A stretch of 64,000 nucleotides of DNA from Candidatus Krumholzibacteriota bacterium. GTDB lineage: Bacteria > Krumholzibacteriota > Krumholzibacteriia > LZORAL124-64-63. The position numbers were made by a program, and so were the translations under genes. The DNA lies in contig JAJRZA010000065.1 of NCBI GenBank assembly GCA_024275485.1, positions 1 to 64,000 on the forward strand, written 5' to 3'. Shown in pieces: positions 35,884 through 48,685 of the stretch (the first letter of the stretch is position 1; each line of letters begins with the position of its first letter). The notes under the pieces are model-generated. The model saw nothing but the letters and a program-made list of their open reading frames with translations, was not told the origin of the DNA and ran no database searches.

Positions 35884-36573
35884 CTATCCGGAAACCTCTT
35901 CCCCGAAATTAACGGCAATCCTGAATATTCCTTCCAGCATCGAAAGCTCACTCACCAACAACTCCGACTGATCCGGATCCCGCAGCGAAACATGAAAGGT
36001 CAGCTTGATCTGCTCTCCCATGCGCTCGGATTTAACCTGAACCATTTGATAACTGCGACAATATTTCTGAAAAACCGGCTCATAAAAGCGGGAGTCTTCG
36101 CTGCTGTCGGTAGGCAACATGGAAAAGGTAACCATAAACTCGCTGCGTCCGGCAGCCCCGTGACGCGACCAATGCAGAACAAAAATAAAGAGCCCCACCA
36201 AGAGCGCGCCGATGAGGGCGATTTTCAAATTTCCCGTTCCGGCGGCCATGCCTACCGCCAGGGAATAGAAAACAAAAGCCGTATCACGCGTATCCTTGAC
36301 CACGGTGCGAAAACGAATAATGGACATGGCTCCGGCCAACCCGAAAGCACGGGCAATGTTGTTGCCGATGACCATCATCACCAGTGACATCAGCATGGAC
36401 AACAATACGAGGGTGTTGACAAAGGAAAAGGAAACAGTCAACTGCCGATGAGTGCTGCGGTAAACCCATGAGATGAACAACCCCAGCGCAAAGGCCAGGG
36501 TGGTGTTGAGCATGATCTGCCCGGCGGTCCAGGGTTCTGGCCTGATGGCCAGTGATTGCAGCAGTTCATCCAT
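35884..36573 (-). CDS. DUF4956 membrane protein
   Basis: 229 residues with four predicted membrane segments in the first 140 residues and a soluble tail. The conserved A-F-G-L-A-G-A-M-S-I-I-R-F-R-T block between helices marks the DUF4956 family, which is commonly encoded beside VTC-domain proteins. Its role is unknown; a channel or membrane partner of the VTC protein is plausible. It is last in a four-gene minus-strand operon, six bases after the VTC gene. Confidence 0.85.
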   Translation of the reverse strand: MDELLQSLAIRPEPWTAGQIMLNTTLAFALGLFISWVYRSTHRQLTVSFSFVNTLVLLSMLMSLVMMVIGNNIARAFGLAGAMSIIRFRTVVKDTRDTAFVFYSLAVGMAAGTGNLKIALIGALLVGLFIFVLHWSRHGAAGRSEFMVTFSMLPTDSSEDSRFYEPVFQKYCRSYQMVQVKSERMGEQIKLTFHVSLRDPDQSELLVSELSMLEGIFRIAVNFGEEVSG

Positions 36574-36579
36574 GAGAGC

Positions 36580-37350
36580 TTAACCTTCCGCTTCCAGGGC
36601 TTTGGCCGCTTCGGCCTCATTGTCCGGGTTCAGCAGCCAGGCATCAATGCCGGTGCAGTATTTGGAATAGGACCCTGATCTTAGATTCAACTTGCGGATC
36701 AGCAAGGCCATCCAGGTGGGCATGGCCTCGTTGAACTTCAGCTCCAAAACGAATTGGCGGTCTTCGAACTGCACCAGGGAATCCTCGTCGAAAAGCTGTT
36801 CCATTGTCGGGTTCAATAAGCTGCGGATGTTGCGGTCAAATGTGACCCGCACGGTTCGATCCCGTTGCCCAACAAAGGCTTCCCGCTCATAGGTCACCAA
36901 CACCACCGGGTGCAATCGTTTCATGTTCAACAGGTAGCGGATCTTGCCCAGAACCGAACGATCGCGGAAGCTGGGTTTGTCATCAAAAACCACCTCGGGT
37001 TTCACGCCATTCATGGCGTGATCCACCTTCTCCAGTGGCAGCATCAACCTGTCCTTGAAGCCGACCCTGCCAAACTTACGCTTGATCTCCACAAAAGCGA
37101 TGCTGTTGGTCTCGGGTGAGTTGTAGGTGCGTACCCGCAGCTTGCGTCGATTATTAAGGCTGTCCATTTTTTCGTGATAAAAATTCAGGTCATCAGAGTC
37201 GAAATAGATGCTGCGAACGGTGTAGCTCTGGTTGGGAAGATCGGCACAATAAGGATCATGCTGAGTATGGCCGACAATGAGCGGGCGGATCTGGCCGATC
37301 ATGGAGACCGGCAGATAAAACTTCAACTCATGCCGCATGTCGTCTCTCAT
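36580..37350 (-). CDS. VTC-domain protein (polyphosphate polymerase-like)
   Basis: About 256 residues forming a VTC-type tunnel-fold domain. Basic tunnel motifs are visible: R-K-L-R-V-R-T-Y, E-I-K-R-K-F-G, V-T-Y-E-R, R-V-T-F-D, E-L-K-F-N and S-K-Y near the end. In yeast Vtc4 this fold makes polyphosphate from ATP; in bacteria the activity of these domains is mostly untested. ATG 37350 (overlapping the HlyD-like gene by four bases, with GGAGG upstream) is preferred to the longer frame from 37407. It is cytosolic and coupled to DUF4956. Confidence 0.85.
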   Translation of the reverse strand: MRDDMRHELKFYLPVSMIGQIRPLIVGHTQHDPYCADLPNQSYTVRSIYFDSDDLNFYHEKMDSLNNRRKLRVRTYNSPETNSIAFVEIKRKFGRVGFKDRLMLPLEKVDHAMNGVKPEVVFDDKPSFRDRSVLGKIRYLLNMKRLHPVVLVTYEREAFVGQRDRTVRVTFDRNIRSLLNPTMEQLFDEDSLVQFEDRQFVLELKFNEAMPTWMALLIRKLNLRSGSYSKYCTGIDAWLLNPDNEAEAAKALEAEG

Positions 37351-38459
37351 CGGGACCAGACCTCCTTTCTGAAGGCCGTGAGGAATTCCTTCTTGAACTG
37401 GTGCCAAAGACTGGTGGTGGGACCGAAAATTTTCGCCCGGCCAATTATGCCCGCTACCAGACGGCCATCAGGGTTATCCAGAAGGCCATAAACCGTGATG
37501 AAGGGACCAGCTTTGGTCAGGGCAACCTTATGATCGATGCGCAGAACCTCACCGATGAATTCATGGTCGGAATACCCTGGAAAAACAATTTTCAGCATCT
37601 GCCCGACCATGGGTTTTTGTGCCTGCCCCTGGGGTATGAGGATGCGGGCGATCATGGTGTCGCAATCCGAAACACTCAGCAGGGAACCGGAGTTATCCTG
37701 CAGGCTCAGGTGTCCGCCGATGGGAGTGCGAATTTCCAAGGCATCGACCGTGGACTGCAACGCAGCCAGTTCACGTTGGAGCGAGGCAATTTTGGTGAGT
37801 GACCGCTCGATTTCTTCGGGTGAGGCCCCGGTAGCCAGTTCTTCTCGTTTGGCACGAGCAATTTTCACATCCAATTCCAAAAGATCCAGACTGGACTGGA
37901 AGGCTTCCCAATCCTCCGAACTGAGAATTTCCTGCTGAAAAAGATTCTTTTGACGGTGGTATTGAACCATGTAGGCCGCCAGTTCGGATTCGGCCAACAT
38001 GATGGTCAATTCGGCACGTTTCATCACTGTGGGCTTGGCTCCGGATTTGAGGACCTCAAGTTCAGCCCGGGCCTCAGTAAGGGAAGTTTCCCTTTCGATC
38101 AGTTCAAGGGCCAACGAGGTGGAGTTTGCGGTAGCCAAGAGATCGCCCGCCGAAACCAGGGAGCTGCGGCCGCTGCCGGCCGTATCGACCGCCAGGGAAA
38201 AGTCCACAAACGAGGGGCGATCAAACTGGTAGACGCGATAATGACGAAACTCCCCGACCAGCAGATCGTCGGTGCCTGTTTTGTAGGAACCGGGCCGCAG
38301 CTCCTCCAATTTCCAGTGTCGGGCCGGATCAATAAGACAACTTCCAGAAACTGATTCCGGGATTTTGATCGTCATGGCCAAAACCACGGCCAAACATACA
38401 AACACACTGATGATGATCAGGGTATTGCGCAGCCGACAGGGTTCTGGTACGTACTTCAT
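37347..38459 (-). CDS. HlyD-like periplasmic adaptor protein
   Basis: 370 residues: one N-terminal membrane helix (L-I-I-I-S-V-F-V-C-L-A-V-V-L-A-M), a long helical hairpin (about 110-240) and a beta-barrel/lipoyl region with I-R-T-P-I-G-G-H-L. This is the layout of membrane fusion proteins that link inner-membrane pumps to outer-membrane channels. No ABC, RND or outer-membrane partner lies beside it; instead it is embedded in the VTC/DUF4956 operon, overlapping VTC by four bases. Confidence 0.78.
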   Translation of the reverse strand: MKYVPEPCRLRNTLIIISVFVCLAVVLAMTIKIPESVSGSCLIDPARHWKLEELRPGSYKTGTDDLLVGEFRHYRVYQFDRPSFVDFSLAVDTAGSGRSSLVSAGDLLATANSTSLALELIERETSLTEARAELEVLKSGAKPTVMKRAELTIMLAESELAAYMVQYHRQKNLFQQEILSSEDWEAFQSSLDLLELDVKIARAKREELATGASPEEIERSLTKIASLQRELAALQSTVDALEIRTPIGGHLSLQDNSGSLLSVSDCDTMIARILIPQGQAQKPMVGQMLKIVFPGYSDHEFIGEVLRIDHKVALTKAGPFITVYGLLDNPDGRLVAGIIGRAKIFGPTTSLWHQFKKEFLTAFRKEVWSR

Positions 38460-38476
38460 CCTGAGTGCTCACATGA

Positions 38477-39016
38477 TTAATATTTCAGGGGCTGGCCCAT
38501 ATCCCAAAGACGGGCAAACACCCCAACAAAGGTTTTGACGGTATAATCATCCGTGATATCCATCAGCAGTTCGAGATTTTTTCCGCCAGCGGATTTTGTC
38601 CAGTTCCAGGATCCGGTCAATACGCGTTTATTGTCGCACAAGACGAACTTGGCGTGCAACTTTCCCTGACTGCGGGGCCAGGCTCTGATCTGGGCCCCGG
38701 CTTTGGCCAACTCATCCACCAGGCTATCCTTCTTGCCGCTTTCCTTTTCATCACATAGAACCCGCAATTTCACGCCTCTTTGCAAGGCTTCCAGCAAAAC
38801 CGGCAACAGCTTGGGATCGTCGAATTTGTAGACGACAGCGGATACCGAACCGTGGACCTGGCCAAGGGCTGAACCCATCAGATCACGCGAATTCAGGTCC
38901 AGGCTGAGATCGACAACCACCTTTGGTTGCCGGGGTGTTCTATCCCCGGTTTCGCCGAACATCGCCGGGCTGCCTGCAACCATGAAAACAAATAAAACAG
39001 ATAGACACAGTTTCAC
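38477..39016 (-). CDS. Exported phospholipase D-like protein with one HKD motif
   Basis: 179 residues with a signal peptide (L-S-V-L-F-V-F-M-V-A-G) and a single PLD catalytic half, H-A-K-F-V-L-C-D followed by L-T-G-S-W-N-W-T, near residues 121-143. Such single-HKD proteins act as dimers, like Nuc endonuclease. GTG start at 39016. It is first in the operon, 17 bases before the HlyD-like gene, so it may process the exported product or act on lipid or nucleic acid; the substrate is unknown. Confidence 0.8.
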   Translation of the reverse strand: MKLCLSVLFVFMVAGSPAMFGETGDRTPRQPKVVVDLSLDLNSRDLMGSALGQVHGSVSAVVYKFDDPKLLPVLLEALQRGVKLRVLCDEKESGKKDSLVDELAKAGAQIRAWPRSQGKLHAKFVLCDNKRVLTGSWNWTKSAGGKNLELLMDITDDYTVKTFVGVFARLWDMGQPLKY

Positions 39017-39243: not shown

Positions 39244-41505
39244 TTATTTCAGCAAAGTCATCTTGCCAACCTGCTTTTGTCCATCGGTATTCAGCACATA
39301 GTAATACAGGCCGGAAGCCACGTTTTTAGGCTGAAAAACAGCTTCGTGGGATCCTGAAGCCAGGTCCCCGCGCACCAGATTCTGCACCAATTTACCCCGC
39401 AGATCATAAACCGAGAGATCCACGGTTCCGGACTGGGAAAGTTCGAAGCGAATCACGGTCCTGGGGTTGAAGGGATTGGGATCATTCTGATGCAACACGG
39501 CCACCGAAGCGGGGTAGTTGTTCTCCTGATCATTTCCCCAGTTGTTGGTGCCAAGCCGCAGCTTGGCCTTGGCTGCGAACACCGGAGCCAGGCCTTCGGG
39601 TTGTTCGGAAATGTAGGGGATTCCGTCATAATCCGAGTCATTGCCCACCTCGCCGGTGGGCATATCCTCGGCCAGCTGCATCTTGTTGGCCACCTGATCC
39701 CAGAAGGCGACGTAGACATCGGTGGCTTCGTCGTGACCGCCCACCAGACGGGCTTCGCGCAGGGCGCCGGAAATCAGGGCCACGGTGCGGGGGGTGTATT
39801 CCGCCATCAATGAATGAATATTCGTGGCGAAAGCCGAGTCGTCGGCATGGTAGAAGTTTGCCATGAGGGCCTCGTAGGCCGCATCGGCGGCGTTCAGATA
39901 GCTTGCTTCGCCGGTGGCGGAGTAGGCGGCGTACAGGGCACGCACGGCGGCGGCCTGGGCTTCGACCGTATGGGGGCCACGCTTGCCGTCGCCAATTCCG
40001 TGAATTGGCACCACGCTGGCGTAAAGATTGTTGTCATCGGCCATGTGGTTGATCATGAAATCAGCCTGGGCGGCCATGGCCTCAAGGGCCATGGGAGCCA
40101 GGGGAGTACCGGTAAATTCTTCCTGGAAAACATTCAAGGCCACCAGAGAGTAAGCCGCATTGACGGCTGAAACGTTGTTGCTCAATTGCACAATGTTGGT
40201 GGTGAGGCCGCCCTGGAAGTCTTCTGCACCAATGGACTTGGCCAAAGGCATGCTCATGGGGAGACTGAAGTCCACGAAGGTACCCATTTCACCGTCGTAG
40301 TGCATGGCCATCATGTTCAGGAAGATGACTTTTGAGACCCCCGTCATCATATCAAAAGGTCCGGGTATGCCGGTTTCCATCATGGAGGCGGGAAAAGGGT
40401 CACCGTCGAAGACACTGTGGTAGGCCATGTGAGCTTCGTCGGAATTGTTGTTGGGGTCCATCATGTTCTTGAAGCTGGTGGTTCCCCACAAAAGGGAAGC
40501 CTGTCCGAACAAGTCACTTCTGGCATCGACTACTTCGTAGGAGCCTACCCGCGGGGGCAGACCGTCCATGACCATTTCTTCGGTCACGGCGATGCGGCGG
40601 GGGAAGTATCTCAGGCCATTCATGGGATCGTAGGTTACGGGGTCGACGCCACCGAGGGCGCTGCCGTCGTAGGCCAGGTTCTCCAGGAGACTCTTGACCT
40701 TGTTGATGGATTCGGCGGTCAGCACCTGGCCGATGAAACCGTCCAGGTTGTCGCCACCGTAAAAGACGTTGTTGTCGGGGTCGAACACTCCGTCCGGCCC
40801 GTCGGGAGTGATGTTGCCGTCGGGGACGACTTCATTTTCGTCACCATCATGGAATCCACCCAGCATGTCCTGGGCCCAGAGGTATTGTTTCATCAGGGAC
40901 TGGCCCATGGATGCGGGGGAGATTTGGTGGATCATGGAGCTGCGATCCCAGCGCAGGGTGGAGAAATCCATGTGGAAATTTGAATCCACTGCCTGGGAAT
41001 AGTGGGGATTGCCGCCGATGAATTCACCGAACTGGGGCCAGGCGCCCAATGGAGGCGTCTGGTTGGCGTTCATTCCGAAACCCATGATGGCCATCATCAG
41101 CATATCGTCTTCGTTGTAGCCATTCATCATGCCGCCGGTGTGAGAGCCGTCGAAATCGGGGCCCATCATGGCTGCATTGGCCATGATGATCGGAGACCAC
41201 ATCATGTGGATTCCGATGCCCGAGCGGGAAACCACAGTTCCTAGCTGATAACGGGAGTACTCGTAATTCTCGATGCCCAGCACGTAGGCCGCGCGGTCGG
41301 GGAAATCAGGCACCATGGGATCAAGCATGTCCAGGTCATAACCGACTTCTTCGGCGTAGGGTTCGCCGCTTTCGTTGATTTCATTGGCCAGGAGCATCTG
41401 GTCGGCGGTGTTGTAGTGGTTCGTGTCGGTGATGTGGACTTGACTGAAGGCGGGCAGGGCGGATATGGCCACGAGGATCACGGCCATTATTTTTAAGTGT
41501 TTCAT
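39244..41505 (-). CDS. Large methionine-rich secreted protein with FlgD-like sorting domain
   Basis: 753 residues: a signal peptide (I-L-V-A-I-S-A-L-P-A-F-S), an unusual N-terminal 160 residues with methionine clusters (G-M-M-N-G-Y-N-E-D-D-M-L-M-M), a helical middle whose A-A-A-V-R-A-L-Y-A-A-Y pattern suggests an alpha/alpha toroid, and a C-terminal sorting domain with D-P-N-P-F-N-P and G-L-Y-Y-Y-V. An acidic calcium-like stretch (N-D-S-D-Y-D-G-I-P) precedes the tail. The ATG follows AAGGAGATCCC. I do not recognise the family; methionine clusters hint at soft-metal binding, which is speculation. It is a single-gene unit with its own terminator. Confidence 0.75.
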   Translation of the reverse strand: MKHLKIMAVILVAISALPAFSQVHITDTNHYNTADQMLLANEINESGEPYAEEVGYDLDMLDPMVPDFPDRAAYVLGIENYEYSRYQLGTVVSRSGIGIHMMWSPIIMANAAMMGPDFDGSHTGGMMNGYNEDDMLMMAIMGFGMNANQTPPLGAWPQFGEFIGGNPHYSQAVDSNFHMDFSTLRWDRSSMIHQISPASMGQSLMKQYLWAQDMLGGFHDGDENEVVPDGNITPDGPDGVFDPDNNVFYGGDNLDGFIGQVLTAESINKVKSLLENLAYDGSALGGVDPVTYDPMNGLRYFPRRIAVTEEMVMDGLPPRVGSYEVVDARSDLFGQASLLWGTTSFKNMMDPNNNSDEAHMAYHSVFDGDPFPASMMETGIPGPFDMMTGVSKVIFLNMMAMHYDGEMGTFVDFSLPMSMPLAKSIGAEDFQGGLTTNIVQLSNNVSAVNAAYSLVALNVFQEEFTGTPLAPMALEAMAAQADFMINHMADDNNLYASVVPIHGIGDGKRGPHTVEAQAAAVRALYAAYSATGEASYLNAADAAYEALMANFYHADDSAFATNIHSLMAEYTPRTVALISGALREARLVGGHDEATDVYVAFWDQVANKMQLAEDMPTGEVGNDSDYDGIPYISEQPEGLAPVFAAKAKLRLGTNNWGNDQENNYPASVAVLHQNDPNPFNPRTVIRFELSQSGTVDLSVYDLRGKLVQNLVRGDLASGSHEAVFQPKNVASGLYYYVLNTDGQKQVGKMTLLK

Positions 41506-42201: not shown

Positions 42202-43857
42202 ATGACGATTTCCACCAAAACCTACTGGGCCTTGATCGGGTTGTTCGCCCTGTCTTTGTTTGTCCATGTCAACTTCCTCGGTGGCAGTCTCAGCAGCCTC
42301 TCCATCGAGGACGAATACACCTACGACCAGTCCCTGGACATCACCGGGTCCCTCGGTAGTGTCAACCTGCGGATGTATGTGCCCAAACCAATGGTCGGCT
42401 TGGAAATCAGGGATGAAAGAATCGAAACCGCCGATCTTGACCTCGTGATCGAAGAGACCGTCGGCGGACGTTTGGTTGTGGTTAAGGGAAATACCGACAA
42501 CCAAGCCCGGCACATCCGTTACCAGGCCAAGCTGCGTTCACTACCCCTGATTTTTACCCTGGACGAGGGCCGCGGTTGGGAGGCTCCCACTCAGGCCGAC
42601 TCCCTGTGGTTGATCTCAACTGAAAACATCCAAACCGGCCATTCCGAAGTCTCGCTGCTACTGGCCCGTCTCTTTGAACTGGACAAGAAAAAATTTGGGG
42701 ATTCCGCGGGCCGCAACTGGGACCACCGGCAATGGCAGGAAGTTCTGTCCGACAAAAACGTCGGCCCGGTCCAGGCCCTGCATGTGATCTACGACCATGC
42801 CCTCGACGGCATCCAACCCGCCACCTTCAGCGGCAAGACCGACGCAGTGACGGCCCTGCGGCTGGGCGAATCCAGTTGCGGTGGTAAATCGCGACTGATG
42901 GTGGCCCTTTGCCGTACCCTGGGAATTCCCGCTCGCCTGGTCGGCGGGGTGATCATGAACCAGGGGGTGCGCAAGCGGGCCCATCACATCTGGGTGGAAA
43001 CCCGGCTGGGCAAGACCTGGGTTCCCTTCGATCCTCTGAATGATTATTTCGGCATGAAACCGGCGCACTTTCTGCCCCTCTACACCGGCGATCTGCCCCT
43101 GATCAAACACTCCCGGGGAATTACCCTGGACTACGGTTTTACATCCGTTAAAAATCGGGTTCCCCAGAGTTGGCAGGGCGATTCGGCTGTATCCCAGGTT
43201 GACGACGGCGGCTCTACGAGCACCTCCGGCTCCCTGGTGCCGATGTTGAACCGGCACAACTATTCAGCCATCATGCTGGCCCCCATCTGTCTGTTGTTTA
43301 TTGTCTTTGCCCGGCAGGTGATCGGGCTGGTGACCATCGGTACTTTTCTGCCCATTCTCCTGGCTTTTTCGTTGATTCAGCAAGACTGGCTGGTAACGGG
43401 CGGTCAGATGGTCTTGGCCCTTCTGCTGGGGGTGATCGTGCGGTTCATACTGATGCGTTTGGCCCTGTTGCATGTGCCGCGCACGGCGGTCATGATCACC
43501 TTTGTGGTGCTGGTATTTCTCTCGTTTTCGGTGGCCATGTCCCGCCTCGATTCTCTCTCCGGAGTGGGGGGGCTGATCCTGCCGCTGGCCGCCCTGGCCA
43601 TGGCGGTGGAGAAATTCACCCTCGTGGCAATGGACAAGGGTACGGCCAGTGCCTTGGTCCTGATGGCCCAGACACTCATTGCTGTGGCGGTTTGCCGGCT
43701 GATCATGGTGACCCCGTTTTTCCAGAATGTGACCATTGCCTTTCCCGAGATCCTTTTCGGAGTCATCGCCATGATTATCCAGCTGGGAAATTACCGGGGG
43801 CTGCGTCTGAAGGAATTGTGGCGCTTCCGCCAGGTTCGCAAGGAGGTGAGCCTGTGA
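42202..43857 (+). CDS. Transglutaminase-like domain fused to 7TM module
   Basis: 551 residues: an N-terminal helix, a periplasmic region with a transglutaminase-like domain (about 130-330) and seven membrane helices (about 350-530). This matches the family known as inactive transglutaminase fused to seven transmembrane helices. Here the triad positions look filled: C226 in S-S-C-G-G-K, H262 in H-I-W-V-E-T and D277 in V-P-F-D-P, each spaced as in active enzymes. In known genomes this family is paired with a RimK-related ATP-grasp ligase, as here: its stop overlaps the ligase start by four bases. ATG 42202 follows AAAGGCC. Confidence 0.88.
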   Translation: MTISTKTYWALIGLFALSLFVHVNFLGGSLSSLSIEDEYTYDQSLDITGSLGSVNLRMYVPKPMVGLEIRDERIETADLDLVIEETVGGRLVVVKGNTDNQARHIRYQAKLRSLPLIFTLDEGRGWEAPTQADSLWLISTENIQTGHSEVSLLLARLFELDKKKFGDSAGRNWDHRQWQEVLSDKNVGPVQALHVIYDHALDGIQPATFSGKTDAVTALRLGESSCGGKSRLMVALCRTLGIPARLVGGVIMNQGVRKRAHHIWVETRLGKTWVPFDPLNDYFGMKPAHFLPLYTGDLPLIKHSRGITLDYGFTSVKNRVPQSWQGDSAVSQVDDGGSTSTSGSLVPMLNRHNYSAIMLAPICLLFIVFARQVIGLVTIGTFLPILLAFSLIQQDWLVTGGQMVLALLLGVIVRFILMRLALLHVPRTAVMITFVVLVFLSFSVAMSRLDSLSGVGGLILPLAALAMAVEKFTLVAMDKGTASALVLMAQTLIAVAVCRLIMVTPFFQNVTIAFPEILFGVIAMIIQLGNYRGLRLKELWRFRQVRKEVSL

Positions 43858-46800
43858 TTTCCCAGATAAAACAGTGGTGGCGCGAGGGACCCGGCAGCGG
43901 TGACATATTGGGGATCAATCGCCGTAATCTGGATCTTGTTTTTGCCGATTTCGAACCCGGGAAGTTTCGGGATCTGGATGACAAGTTGGCCGCCAAGGAG
44001 TTGATGGAAAGGGCCGGGGTCAAAGTTCCGCAAACCCTGGGCTGGGTTTCCAGTCAGATGGAAATGGCGACCCTTGACAATCTTTTGGCTGAGCAGGACA
44101 GCCTGGTCCTGAAGCCGAGCAACGGGTTTGGCGGCAAGGGCATCGTCATACTACGCAAAAATGAGGCCGGGTCCTGGACCAAGGCCCGTGGTGGGGAGAT
44201 CTCTAGCGAGGAAATCCGGAGACACGCGGCGGATATCCTGTCGGGTATCTTCAGCCTCGACGAGTCTGAAGATACCGTCATCTGTGAAGAGCTGATCATT
44301 CCCCATCCCTTCTTTTCCAAATTGGGACCCGAGGGTCTGTGTGATGTTCGCATCATCCTGGAAAAACACGTTCCCCTGCAGGCCATGTGCCGGGTACCCA
44401 CCACGCTCTCCGATGGAAAGGCCAACCTCCACGGTGGGGGTGTGGGCCTGGGAGTCAACCTGGATGATGGCCTGGTCAACGGGGCCATGGTTGGGGACCT
44501 ACGGATTACCAAACATCCGGATACCAAACTGCCTGTGTTGGGGTTGCAACTTCCCGACTGGGAGGAGTGCCTTGCCCTGGCGGTGGCCGCATCCCGCACC
44601 GTGGAGGTGGACTACCTGGGGGTGGATATCGTCGTGGACGGTAAGCGCGGCCCCTTGGTCCTGGAAATCAACGCCCGGCCGGGGCTGGCCATCCAGATTG
44701 CCAACGCCCAGGGACAGCCGGTGACAACCCGCGCTCCCAGCTCTCGTCTGGATAAGGCCACCTCCTATTTCAACTGGGTGCTGCTTTTGATGGTTGTGGT
44801 CTCGCCGCTGGGTTTCCAATGGTGGCAGAACCAATTCAGCGAGGCCCTGATTTTTGACTTGGGTTCCGAGGAAACCAGAACAGCTGTGGTCGCGGCCCGG
44901 GAGGCGGAGGACAACCTGCTGGACAGGGATGTGCCCCACCAGATCGAGGAGATCAATCTGGGCGAAACCAGCAAGGGTTTCAACAACGCCCGCAAGGCGG
45001 CCGCGGCGGGATATACCCGGCAGGCTTTGCGTCTTTACAGCACCGTGCTCGCTGATTCCAGTCTGGCGCCGTTTGCGTTGAACAACATGGCTATCCTCGT
45101 CGGGCGGGCAGGTCAGGACAGCTTGGCCTTGGCTTACCTCAATGAAGCGGTCACGCGTTTTCCGGCCTACTATCGGGGATTTTATAACCTGGGGCTGGCC
45201 CTGGAAAAATCCGGTCAAAAGGTCAAAGCCCGAGAAGCCTTCGATCGTTCCCTGGCCCTGAAACCCAATCACGCTCCGACCTGGGCGGCTTTGGGAAGTC
45301 TGGAATTCGGCAACAAGGACTACGCGGAGGCGACTATTGCCTTCGGCAAAGCCATCCGTTATGATCCGACGATCAAGGGTTCCCGCTTCAAGCTGGGGCT
45401 GTCGAACCGGCTGCTGAAAGATTTCCCCGCAGCCCAGAAAAGTTTTGAAGAATTGTTGACCCTGGATCCGGACAACGAAGCCGCGGTTTACTGGCTGGCC
45501 CGAACCTACCGTGACTTGTCTCAACAGGACAGCGACAACCGGACCCACTTTCTGGCTCGGACCCATGCCCTGTTCAAGGAGTTTTCCCGGAAGACCCCCA
45601 GGATCAATTCCATGGCAGGGACCATGGCCTTTGAGCGGGGTGACCTGTTGGTGGCCCAGAAGATTTTTGAAGAGATGAGCAAAGGGAAATATCGTCCCGG
45701 GTACCACAATCTGGCCTTGGCCGCAACTGCTCTGGAACTCGGCAACTGGGATCTGGCCACTACCGCGGCCAATGGTGGCAGACGTCACGACTCCCGGACC
45801 TCGGCCCGGTTGAAATATTTGGCTCAGCTGGGTCAATCGCTGGCCAACCGCAGTTTGCCTCGCCTGGATCCCAGGCATGCTCCGGGGCCGATTCCCCACC
45901 TGATGGCGGCCCTGCTGGACGAAAACCAACGGCTGGTAGGATCAATTCTTGTCGAGATTGAACAATCCGTGGGACAGGAAGATGTTTCCTGGGCCAAGTG
46001 GCTGGCCGGCAGGGATGACCAGCAGGATCATGCCCGAGCCGTTGATTTTCCCAGTGCCCTGCGCCCCTATACCGTCGCTGCGGCCAATCTCGATGCCTTC
46101 CTGGAGTCTGAAACAAAGATTTCCGACTCCTACGGTTTGTACCTGGGATACATGACCTCCAACCAGGCCGGAAATGTGCCCGATACGTGGCTTGTGCAAC
46201 AACAATTGCGCATTCTGCGCCCCGATTACCTGCCCCTGCTGCTGGAGGATTTTCAGGACGCGATGGATATCGGCGAGGTCAATCAGGCCATTGATGTCGG
46301 CCAGCGGATCCAGAAATTCGGGGTGGTTGATCCCCACTTTATTTTCGATCTGGCGGCCTTGCATCTTTCGGATGGCAAGCCCAGGACGGCCCGCAAGCTT
46401 TTGCGCTCTCTGCCTGAGGAATCCCGTCAGGCCCCCAAGGCTATCATCATCGAGGGACGTCTGGCCATGGCGGCTGAACGCTACTCCACGGCCATCAAGC
46501 TTCTGAAGGGGTTGTTGAAACGCGATCCCGACAACCTGGAGGCACGCTTCGCCCTGGGCGAGGCCCGGCTGGACAAGGGGGAGTTCAGGAGTGCGGCCCG
46601 GGAGCTGCGCAAAGCCGTTGATCTGGCTCCAGCCCGACGGGATATTCGCCAGGCCCTGGCCCAGTCGTTGATGAAACGCAAAAAGTACTCCGATGCCGTT
46701 CACGAATGGTCGGTGCTGTTGTCGCTGGAACCGGATAATTTTTCGACGCGTTTCAACTACGCGCTCTGCCTGCAGAGGACCGAGGATTACGCCAAGGCCC

Positions 46801-46991
46801 TGGCCCAGTACGATACCATCCTGGCCAGTGGTCCGCCGCGAACCAGTACGGTATTCAACCGTGGACTTGCCCTGGAACATCTTGGCCGAACCGCAGAAGC
46901 CCTGGAAGCCTACCAACTCGTTCTCGAACTGGTGCCCACCCACCCCGCCTCACTACGTAAACTTGAACTATTGGAAGGACCCCTCCCATGA
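43854..46991 (+). CDS. RimK-related ATP-grasp ligase fused via one TM helix to a TPR array
   Basis: 1045 residues. The first 300 are an ATP-grasp amide ligase of the alpha-L-glutamate-ligase-like family: L-V-L-K-P-S-N-G-F-G-G-K-G (nucleotide loop) and E-I-N-A-R-P-G-L (metal-binding end). One membrane helix follows (about 305-325, F-N-W-V-L-L-L-M-V-V-V). The remaining 700 residues are TPR-type repeats expected to lie in the periplasm. The family normally ends after the ligase domain, so the TM-TPR extension is unusual. GTG 43854 has an excellent AGGAGGTGA site and overlaps the 7TM gene; the 3' end overlaps the outer-membrane gene by four bases (ATGA). Confidence 0.88.
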   Translation: MISQIKQWWREGPGSGDILGINRRNLDLVFADFEPGKFRDLDDKLAAKELMERAGVKVPQTLGWVSSQMEMATLDNLLAEQDSLVLKPSNGFGGKGIVILRKNEAGSWTKARGGEISSEEIRRHAADILSGIFSLDESEDTVICEELIIPHPFFSKLGPEGLCDVRIILEKHVPLQAMCRVPTTLSDGKANLHGGGVGLGVNLDDGLVNGAMVGDLRITKHPDTKLPVLGLQLPDWEECLALAVAASRTVEVDYLGVDIVVDGKRGPLVLEINARPGLAIQIANAQGQPVTTRAPSSRLDKATSYFNWVLLLMVVVSPLGFQWWQNQFSEALIFDLGSEETRTAVVAAREAEDNLLDRDVPHQIEEINLGETSKGFNNARKAAAAGYTRQALRLYSTVLADSSLAPFALNNMAILVGRAGQDSLALAYLNEAVTRFPAYYRGFYNLGLALEKSGQKVKAREAFDRSLALKPNHAPTWAALGSLEFGNKDYAEATIAFGKAIRYDPTIKGSRFKLGLSNRLLKDFPAAQKSFEELLTLDPDNEAAVYWLARTYRDLSQQDSDNRTHFLARTHALFKEFSRKTPRINSMAGTMAFERGDLLVAQKIFEEMSKGKYRPGYHNLALAATALELGNWDLATTAANGGRRHDSRTSARLKYLAQLGQSLANRSLPRLDPRHAPGPIPHLMAALLDENQRLVGSILVEIEQSVGQEDVSWAKWLAGRDDQQDHARAVDFPSALRPYTVAAANLDAFLESETKISDSYGLYLGYMTSNQAGNVPDTWLVQQQLRILRPDYLPLLLEDFQDAMDIGEVNQAIDVGQRIQKFGVVDPHFIFDLAALHLSDGKPRTARKLLRSLPEESRQAPKAIIIEGRLAMAAERYSTAIKLLKGLLKRDPDNLEARFALGEARLDKGEFRSAARELRKAVDLAPARRDIRQALAQSLMKRKKYSDAVHEWSVLLSLEPDNFSTRFNYALCLQRTEDYAKALAQYDTILASGPPRTSTVFNRGLALEHLGRTAEALEAYQLVLELVPTHPASLRKLELLEGPLP

Positions 46992-48685
46992 TGATTTTGA
47001 AGCTTTTCGGAAATAAGGCTCTCAGCAGCGGACTCCTTGTTCTCCTGGTGACCATGGTCTGGTTCGGCGCTTCCGAGGCCGAGGCTTCCTGGAAATCCGT
47101 CCGGCCCGACAGTACCGTTGAGCGGGTACGTCTGGTGGTCGTCTCGGAGCAGGAAGAAGATCGCACGTTGCGGGGAATCTGGACCGTTCTGGAACCAGGG
47201 CAGAATATAACTTTTGCCCTGACCGGAGATGGTCGCATTCGGCTGGAGACCAGGTCCGTCTACCGGAATCCTGATGATGAGGACTATTACCGGTTGAAAG
47301 TGGCCCTGGCCGATACCGTGCGCAAGTTGAAAAGGCGTTCAGTTTGGGAACACAACGTTCATTTCCAGCGGGGTGAGGGACAGTCCAACCCGGGCGAAGT
47401 AAGAACCATCGTTGGTGTGGGGGAACTTGATCAGCTGAGTCTGGACTGGCAGGCAAGCACCGGGAACCTGGTGGTGGAGAACCAGGCCAGGAACAAGCGG
47501 GTGATCCTATGTCGCGTATTGCTGGGCACCGGTGTGAGCAAGGTCGGGCGGAAGAAAGCGGAGAAACGGGGCAAGACCCTGGATCAGTCCCTGGGAATCG
47601 AAGCCCTGGTTCCTGGCGTGGGTTGGGACAGCAACGCCCTCCTGACAGCCAAAGACGACTCCACCGCCGACCCAGAGGCGGAATGGTTCCTGCCGGTTTC
47701 GATCAAGGCCCACTTCGACAAGGACATCAATACCCGGACCTCCTTTCAGGGCAAGTATTCCTTCTCGGGGGCTTTCTACCAGAACCCCGTCCTGGATACA
47801 AGAAAACACCGCCTCAAACTGGGTGGTGAGACCCGCATCGGCTCCCAGCGAGCCCGTGGGGGAGTTGATCTGTTTTATGGTTATCGGTTCACCCACAAGA
47901 ACGATACCTACAACGGCCGCAATGATCGCGAGGAGTTCGAGACCATCGACCGCTTGACCGGCCTGCCGATTCCCTTGGGCAACCGTTTTGACTACAACGA
48001 GCATCGACTGGAGGGCGGCCTGCGAAAGAAACTGGGCCGCCAGGTGGAGACGACCTTTTCGATGTTCGGACTGGTCAAGGACTATATCCAGGATTTTTCG
48101 GAATATCCGGACATCTACTCCCTGGACCAGGACCATCTGGAGATGGAACTGGAAATTACCTGGCGAATTTTGAACAATACCAAACTTACCGGCCGCTTCA
48201 CCTATCTGGCCAAGGATTACGACGAGAAATTCTCTCGTGCCACCGATGGGACCGAAGTGACCGATACCCCGACTTCCCTTCGAAATTCCAACTTCGTACT
48301 GGTGGCCGAATACGGGCGGGGCCCTGGCCTGCGGGCTCATGCCGATCTGAAGGTATTCCAGAGTAAAGACCAGTATGCGGGTTATTGGGACTATGCCGGC
48401 TTGGCCGTCGAAGGCGGTCTCGGCTGGCGGTGGGAAACCGGGCACAAGTTGAGCGCCAGCGTACGGCGCTCGCATAAGGACTACGACAACGCCCGTCTGA
48501 GCTACGACCCAGCAGGTGATTTGCGAGTCAAGGAAGTCCTGAATGTAAGGATTGGCGGGGACTATATTCTCTCCGGGAACTGGGAAGTGTTTTTCCAATA
48601 CCACTTCAAGAACGCCGACAATAACAATACCAGTTTTGCCTATTTGCGGACGGTAATCGTAGCGGGGCTGAATTTTCGGCATTGA
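46988..48685 (+). CDS. Outer-membrane beta-barrel protein of the ATP-grasp operon
   Basis: 565 residues: a signal peptide (L-L-V-L-L-V-T-M-V-W-F-G-A-S-E-A), a periplasmic beta domain (about 35-190) and a C-terminal region of alternating amphipathic strands (about 200-565) ending in V-I-V-A-G-L-N-F, as in outer-membrane barrels. No sequence family was recognised. The four-base overlap with the ATP-grasp-TPR gene implies stoichiometric production. A TPR scaffold plus barrel is the arrangement used by polymer exporters such as PgaA, BcsC and AlgK/AlgE, so an export role is suggested by analogy only. Confidence 0.75.
   Translation: MMILKLFGNKALSSGLLVLLVTMVWFGASEAEASWKSVRPDSTVERVRLVVVSEQEEDRTLRGIWTVLEPGQNITFALTGDGRIRLETRSVYRNPDDEDYYRLKVALADTVRKLKRRSVWEHNVHFQRGEGQSNPGEVRTIVGVGELDQLSLDWQASTGNLVVENQARNKRVILCRVLLGTGVSKVGRKKAEKRGKTLDQSLGIEALVPGVGWDSNALLTAKDDSTADPEAEWFLPVSIKAHFDKDINTRTSFQGKYSFSGAFYQNPVLDTRKHRLKLGGETRIGSQRARGGVDLFYGYRFTHKNDTYNGRNDREEFETIDRLTGLPIPLGNRFDYNEHRLEGGLRKKLGRQVETTFSMFGLVKDYIQDFSEYPDIYSLDQDHLEMELEITWRILNNTKLTGRFTYLAKDYDEKFSRATDGTEVTDTPTSLRNSNFVLVAEYGRGPGLRAHADLKVFQSKDQYAGYWDYAGLAVEGGLGWRWETGHKLSASVRRSHKDYDNARLSYDPAGDLRVKEVLNVRIGGDYILSGNWEVFFQYHFKNADNNNTSFAYLRTVIVAGLNFRH

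Follow-up and report, generated by a model that had tools for sequence, protein, structure and literature searches.

The window, that is, the whole analysed stretch of 64,000 nucleotides of Candidatus Krumholzibacteriota DNA, contains a cassette of three genes located on the plus strand, namely gene 1 (42202-43857), which encodes a transglutaminase-7TM protein, gene 2 (43854-46991, GTG start codon), which encodes an ATP-grasp ligase fused through a TM helix to TPRs, and gene 3 (46988-48685), which encodes a predicted outer-membrane barrel. A sequence-only reading of this DNA had described three genes overlapping by four bases each, and this was borne out by the coordinates and both overlaps read from the sequence. 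The overlap of genes 1 and 2 (43854-43857, plus strand) was also found in the genomes G007, G008 and G009, and that of genes 2 and 3 (46988-46991, plus strand) in the same three genomes and in G055. The closest named relative of the three-gene locus is a Candidatus Krumholzibacteriota MAG (contig JAJRWA010000048.1). No RNA elements were found at the locus, and the promoter and terminator counts there were no different from those of shuffled sequences.

The protein of gene 1 resembles RloB of the rlo operon and was attributed to the 7TM_transglut family (PF14402; E=2e-38, 132.7 bits at a cut-off of 25), with a match to Transglut_core (PF01841; E=1e-18); PF14400 did not match this protein. It was found to have a single N-terminal helix, serving as a TM anchor, and a bundle of helices at the C-terminus that ends in a basic tail, although this picture rests in part on a low-confidence AlphaFold model (pLDDT 37, built from two sequences). 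A search of the gene 1 protein against solved structures gave no match. The arrangement of the N-terminal helix and the C-terminal 7TM bundle with its basic tail allows us to assume that the transglutaminase-fold domain is periplasmic and that both termini are cytosolic. The putative catalytic triad (42877-43032, plus strand), identified by alignment, is intact and consists of C226 (42877-42879), H262 (42985-42987) and D277 (43030-43032). In an alignment of seven Krumholzibacteriota proteins with two RloB proteins, Cys and His were present in all seven of the former and Asp in five of them, whereas the RloB proteins of Legionella and Aeromonas had none of the three residues. In the cassettes of G059 and G060, where the ligase and TPR parts are split, Cys replaces the catalytic Asp (PFCPTN), and Cys and His are retained.

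Gene 2 begins with an ATP-grasp amide-ligase domain (43854-44738, plus strand), which was recognised by ATPgrasp_ST (PF14397; E=9e-60, 202.6 bits, above the cut-off). The best NCBIfam model was TIGR02291 (alpha-L-glutamate ligase-like; E=3e-78), whose score of 262.9 bits is below the equivalog cut-off of 314.2, so this ligase is a relative of the named equivalog rather than a member of it. The ligase core is of the RloC-type/RimK-type ATP-grasp fold, is 34-36% identical to the rlo ligase cores and shares 59 invariant alignment positions with RloC of Legionella and Aeromonas. The ligase is followed by a single TM helix (residues 303-321; 44760-44816, plus strand), assigned by hydropathy and flanking charges, which is the only hydrophobic helix between the ligase and the TPRs. 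The remainder of the protein is a TPR solenoid of about 670 residues (44979-46988, plus strand), matched by many TPR models. In the source genome (G000), G007 and G009, the charges flanking the TM helix speak for a ligase in the cytosol and TPRs in the periplasm; for G008 they are not decisive. Since the TPRs lie beyond the TM helix in the fused form and belong to a separate gene product with its own membrane anchor in the split form of G059 and G060, the solenoid is likely periplasmic and the ligase likely cytosolic.

The protein of gene 3 starts with a signal peptide and an N-terminal domain that extends to residue 198 (46988-47581, plus strand); according to the alignment of homologues, this domain is probably beta-rich and is missing from the split-type cassettes. 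The rest (47582-48685, plus strand) is predicted to be an outer-membrane beta-barrel. Against Pfam, gene 3 itself gave only a sub-threshold match to BBP2_2; this family scored narrowly above the cut-off for the homologue in G008, and the homologue in G007 had a sub-threshold match to OMP_b-brl. A comparison of the barrel with solved structures gave no sequence match; the AlphaFold model, obtained from a single sequence, had a pLDDT of 28, too low for use. Seven sequences of the gene 3 type (19-66% identical) were aligned. Averaged over the alignment, the hydrophobic/polar alternation of residues 199-565 was 0.95 vs 0.56 ± 0.05 in locally shuffled alignments, and none of the 2000 shuffles reached the observed value. 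The alternation pattern shows about 16 strong strands, paired as hairpins, and a C-terminal strand of the kind typical of barrels, which supports the barrel prediction. The anatomy proposed in the sequence-only reading, namely a cytosolic ligase, one TM helix, periplasmic TPRs and an outer-membrane barrel, is supported by hydropathy and charges, by the anchor of the split form and by strand alternation.

The first two genes had been taken for known partners, and this is correct: they correspond to the rloB/rloC pair of P. aeruginosa, in which RloA is a secreted retropepsin, RloB an inactive transglutaminase-7TM protein and RloC a cytosolic ATP-grasp protein (PMC12239564). RloA cleaves polyglutamate, rloA mutants are rescued by the loss of rloB or rloC, and in Pseudomonas the operon controls the tolerance of osmotic stress, biofilm and the sensitivity to beta-lactams (PMC12239564). 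A search of plasmid records revealed rlo-type loci in Aeromonas and in Legionella; the Legionella plasmid carries an annotated rlo-type operon with the same gene order as that of P. aeruginosa and no annotated TPR or barrel gene. In the rloABC loci of Pseudomonas, Legionella and Aeromonas, as in the cassette, the 7TM-transglutaminase-fold protein adjoins an RloC-type ligase. The differences are that rlo includes the RloA retropepsin, which the cassette locus lacks, that the transglutaminase domain of rlo is degenerate, whereas the triad of the cassette is intact, and that rlo has neither the TPR fusion nor the barrel. In addition, gene 1 scored 116.7 bits against the RloB equivalog NF052267, far from its cut-off of 900. 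The RloA retropepsin family (PF05618) is absent from the source genome and was found in two of the eight cassette genomes, away from the cassette locus. The intact triad and the lack of a retropepsin at the locus suggest that the transglutaminase domain may assume the cutting or transfer role held by the retropepsin in rlo.

To evaluate the distribution of the cassette, 80 Krumholzibacteriota genomes, including the source genome, were searched. Strong ligase matches were found in eight of them (G000, G007, G008, G009, G054, G055, G059 and G060), and the barrel profile detected seven of these eight; G054 was left out of the barrel score, as the DNA 3' of its ligase is masked. The sequence-only reading had predicted co-occurrence in related genomes, and the ligase and the barrel did occur together in all seven testable carriers, compared with one barrel relic in the 72 other genomes (Fisher p = 3e-9, with genomes treated as independent though they are related). 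This relic, of about 115 residues, is an isolated C-terminal fragment in G042 (L084:6567-6911, minus strand) with neither a ligase nor a 7TM gene, and it is possibly a remnant of a lost cassette. The 7TM-transglutaminase gene was present in all ligase carriers except G055, whose contig starts inside the ligase. The search for the same gene order in related genomes, which had been proposed as a check, showed that it recurs in other genera. The distribution is patchy, as none of the five other genomes of the same genus carries the cassette. Its flanks have little in common beyond the cassette itself, except between G059 and G060, which indicates that the cassette is self-contained. Beyond the phylum, the search covered plasmid records, viral contigs and one species-genome scan for close relatives of gene 1. 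Besides the rlo-type loci, the plasmid records yielded one ligase homologue in Halobacterium, and other proteins of the transglutaminase family matched over short stretches; no relatives of the cassette were found in the viral contigs. Since the search was restricted to these sets, the cassette may be more widespread than Krumholzibacteriota. A search for a published ligase-TPR-transglutaminase operon found none in the set of papers that it covered.

Two architectures were distinguished. The split form, seen in G059 and G060, has one gene for the ligase and another for a TPR protein of 520 aa with an N-terminal anchor; the order is transglutaminase-7TM, ligase, TPR and barrel, after which comes a secreted protein that is repetitive and has a T9SS-type tail. 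This independently suggests a location of the TPRs past the inner membrane. The secreted repeat protein (CarboxypepD_reg/SpaA-like; L011:12889-14829 and L010:342-2279), located directly 3' of the split-type barrel, is a possible substrate of the cassette. In a ligase tree of nine sequences with a midpoint root, all fused ligases group together, and those of the split type are nearer to RloC; the ligase-TPR fusion is probably derived from the split arrangement. G000 and G054 belong to the same family as G059 and G060, yet they cluster with the cassettes of another family, so it is likely either that the cassette has been transferred or that the two types are ancient.

A comparison with known exporters indicated that the predicted parts of the cassette match the layout of the synthase-dependent exporters BcsC, with 19 TPRs, and PgaA, with at least 13 repeats, each of which has a barrel of 16 strands (PMC11379886, PMC9384988). 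In these systems, a long periplasmic TPR solenoid and an outer-membrane barrel serve an inner-membrane synthase (PMC11379886, PMC9384988). However, in BcsC and PgaA the TPR region is joined to the barrel, whereas in the cassette it is part of the ligase protein and the barrel has a gene of its own. The synthase partner also differs, being a glycosyltransferase in the former and an ATP-grasp ligase in the cassette, which contains no glycosyltransferase.

The poly-gamma-glutamate synthase PgsBC/CapBC likewise combines an amide ligase with a polytopic membrane subunit, but its ligase is of the Mur-ligase type and not ATP-grasp. A homology of the 7TM domain to CapC (PF14102) had been suggested by eye and was not established: there was no Pfam cross-match, and the whole-domain hhalign score was non-significant and inside the shuffled range. 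A faint motif similarity was seen between the N-half of the 7TM domain and the C-half of CapC (1 of 100 shuffles, in one of four half-domain pairings). Elsewhere in G000 (L030:302-3364, G000:C50, near 120018), a gene with a Mur-ligase domain overlaps a CapC gene (PF14102), and this pair is likely a poly-gamma-glutamate-type synthase. CapC was found in 29 of the 80 genomes of the Gram-negative Krumholzibacteriota. In G001 (L016:5977-9117), 7TM_transglut is fused to an ATP-grasp of the D-Ala-D-Ala-ligase type and has no transglutaminase domain; the fusion gene is located directly 3' of a HlyD-type adaptor gene and two esterase-like genes. It hints that the 7TM domain is a membrane partner of amide ligases.

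In our reading, the cassette is a new form of the RloB/RloC module in which the parts make up a trans-envelope machine, and this machine would bring an amide-linked product to the cell surface. From the computed parts, their order and overlaps, the co-occurrence, the intact catalytic residues and the likely topology, we infer the substrate, the catalysis, the TPR-barrel contact and the export as follows. The cytosolic ATP-grasp domain would form amide bonds, most likely by extending a growing chain, or loading an acceptor, with glutamate or some other amino acid, and the 7TM subunit would receive the product at the inner membrane. The periplasmic Cys-His-Asp transglutaminase domain would then cut, transfer or attach it. 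The TPR solenoid, held at the inner membrane by the TM helix of the ligase, would cross the periplasm and dock to the barrel; the product would then either leave through the barrel or become fixed to the surface there. A secreted amide-linked polymer, as proposed in the sequence-only reading, may be what the cassette produces.

Such a single machine, built on the RloB/RloC module, is the reading that we favour, with about an even chance of being right. It is suggested by the homology of the ligase to RloC and of the 7TM protein to RloB, both of which belong to the same genetic pathway as a protease that cleaves polyglutamate (PMC12239564), by the ligase-barrel co-occurrence and the overlapping gene order kept in different flanks, by the membrane helix or anchor that precedes the TPRs in the fused and split forms, and by the strand alternation of the barrel. 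The match of the part list to exporters composed of TPRs and a 16-strand barrel (PMC11379886, PMC9384988) and the fusion in G001 of the 7TM domain to another ATP-grasp ligase behind a HlyD-type adaptor point in the same direction. The charges of the TPR region and of the predicted barrel lumen are near neutral and provide no argument for polyglutamate or another polyanion. This near-neutrality and the replacement of the catalytic Asp by Cys in G059 and G060 count against a delivery machine, as do the rlo phenotypes, which speak for a role in cell-wall homeostasis more than for one in secretion.

These phenotypes lead to the main rival, an envelope homeostasis system without export, in which the target modified by the ligase and the 7TM protein would be periplasmic or linked to peptidoglycan, and the TPRs and the barrel would be a tether or sensor between the inner and outer membranes. 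Osmotic, cell-shape and beta-lactam phenotypes have been described for rlo mutants, and the system is not known to secrete a product (PMC12239564); disruption of a 7TM gene with an inactive transglutaminase led to more vesicles in Shewanella (PMC12096838). However, rlo systems manage without the TPRs and the barrel, and a mere tether needs no conserved large barrel, which was found here only together with the ligase. We consider this explanation possible and on the whole unlikely.

An improbable alternative is that proteins at the cell surface, either secreted or of the T9SS type, receive amino acids from the cassette or are cross-linked by it. Transglutaminase folds can either form or cut amide bonds, and the CarboxypepD_reg/SpaA-like protein with its T9SS tail does lie 3' of the barrel in G059 and G060. 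However, the gene for this protein is missing from the other cassettes, and proteins with similar tails are common in Krumholzibacteriota genomes. Finally, cytosolic TPR domains are common and Pfam does not strongly recognise the barrel of gene 3, but a chance neighbourhood, in which a cytosolic TPR fusion and a porin have no relation to the rlo-like pair beside them, is very improbable and is already disfavoured, because the gene order is shared with other genera, co-occurrence and order are kept in at least seven genomes with different flanks, and a membrane helix precedes the TPRs in both the fused and the split forms.

The cassette bears on what RloB/RloC produce in Pseudomonas and on the destination of this product (PMC12239564): the connection of a natural variant to a bridge in the periplasm and to an outer-membrane barrel suggests an outward route for the product from the inner membrane. 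A bolder and rather doubtful proposal is that the trans-envelope machine represents a new class of Gram-negative secretion machine, consisting of an ATP-grasp polymerase with its own TPR bridge, a 7TM channel and a barrel, which would make and secrete a poly-amino acid, e.g., poly-alpha-glutamate. If this were true, the machine would exist in reduced form as rloBC in Pseudomonas and Vibrio, with the product remaining in the periplasm.

Two further observations concern the minus strand of the window. Just upstream of the cassette (35884-39016), genes encoding DUF4956, VTC-domain, HlyD-like and PLD-like proteins are located in a row, which is a possible second envelope or polymer locus. Between this row and gene 1 (39244-41505), there is a gene for a secreted protein of 753 aa that has a C-terminal tail of the T9SS type and weakly resembles C5-epimerases.
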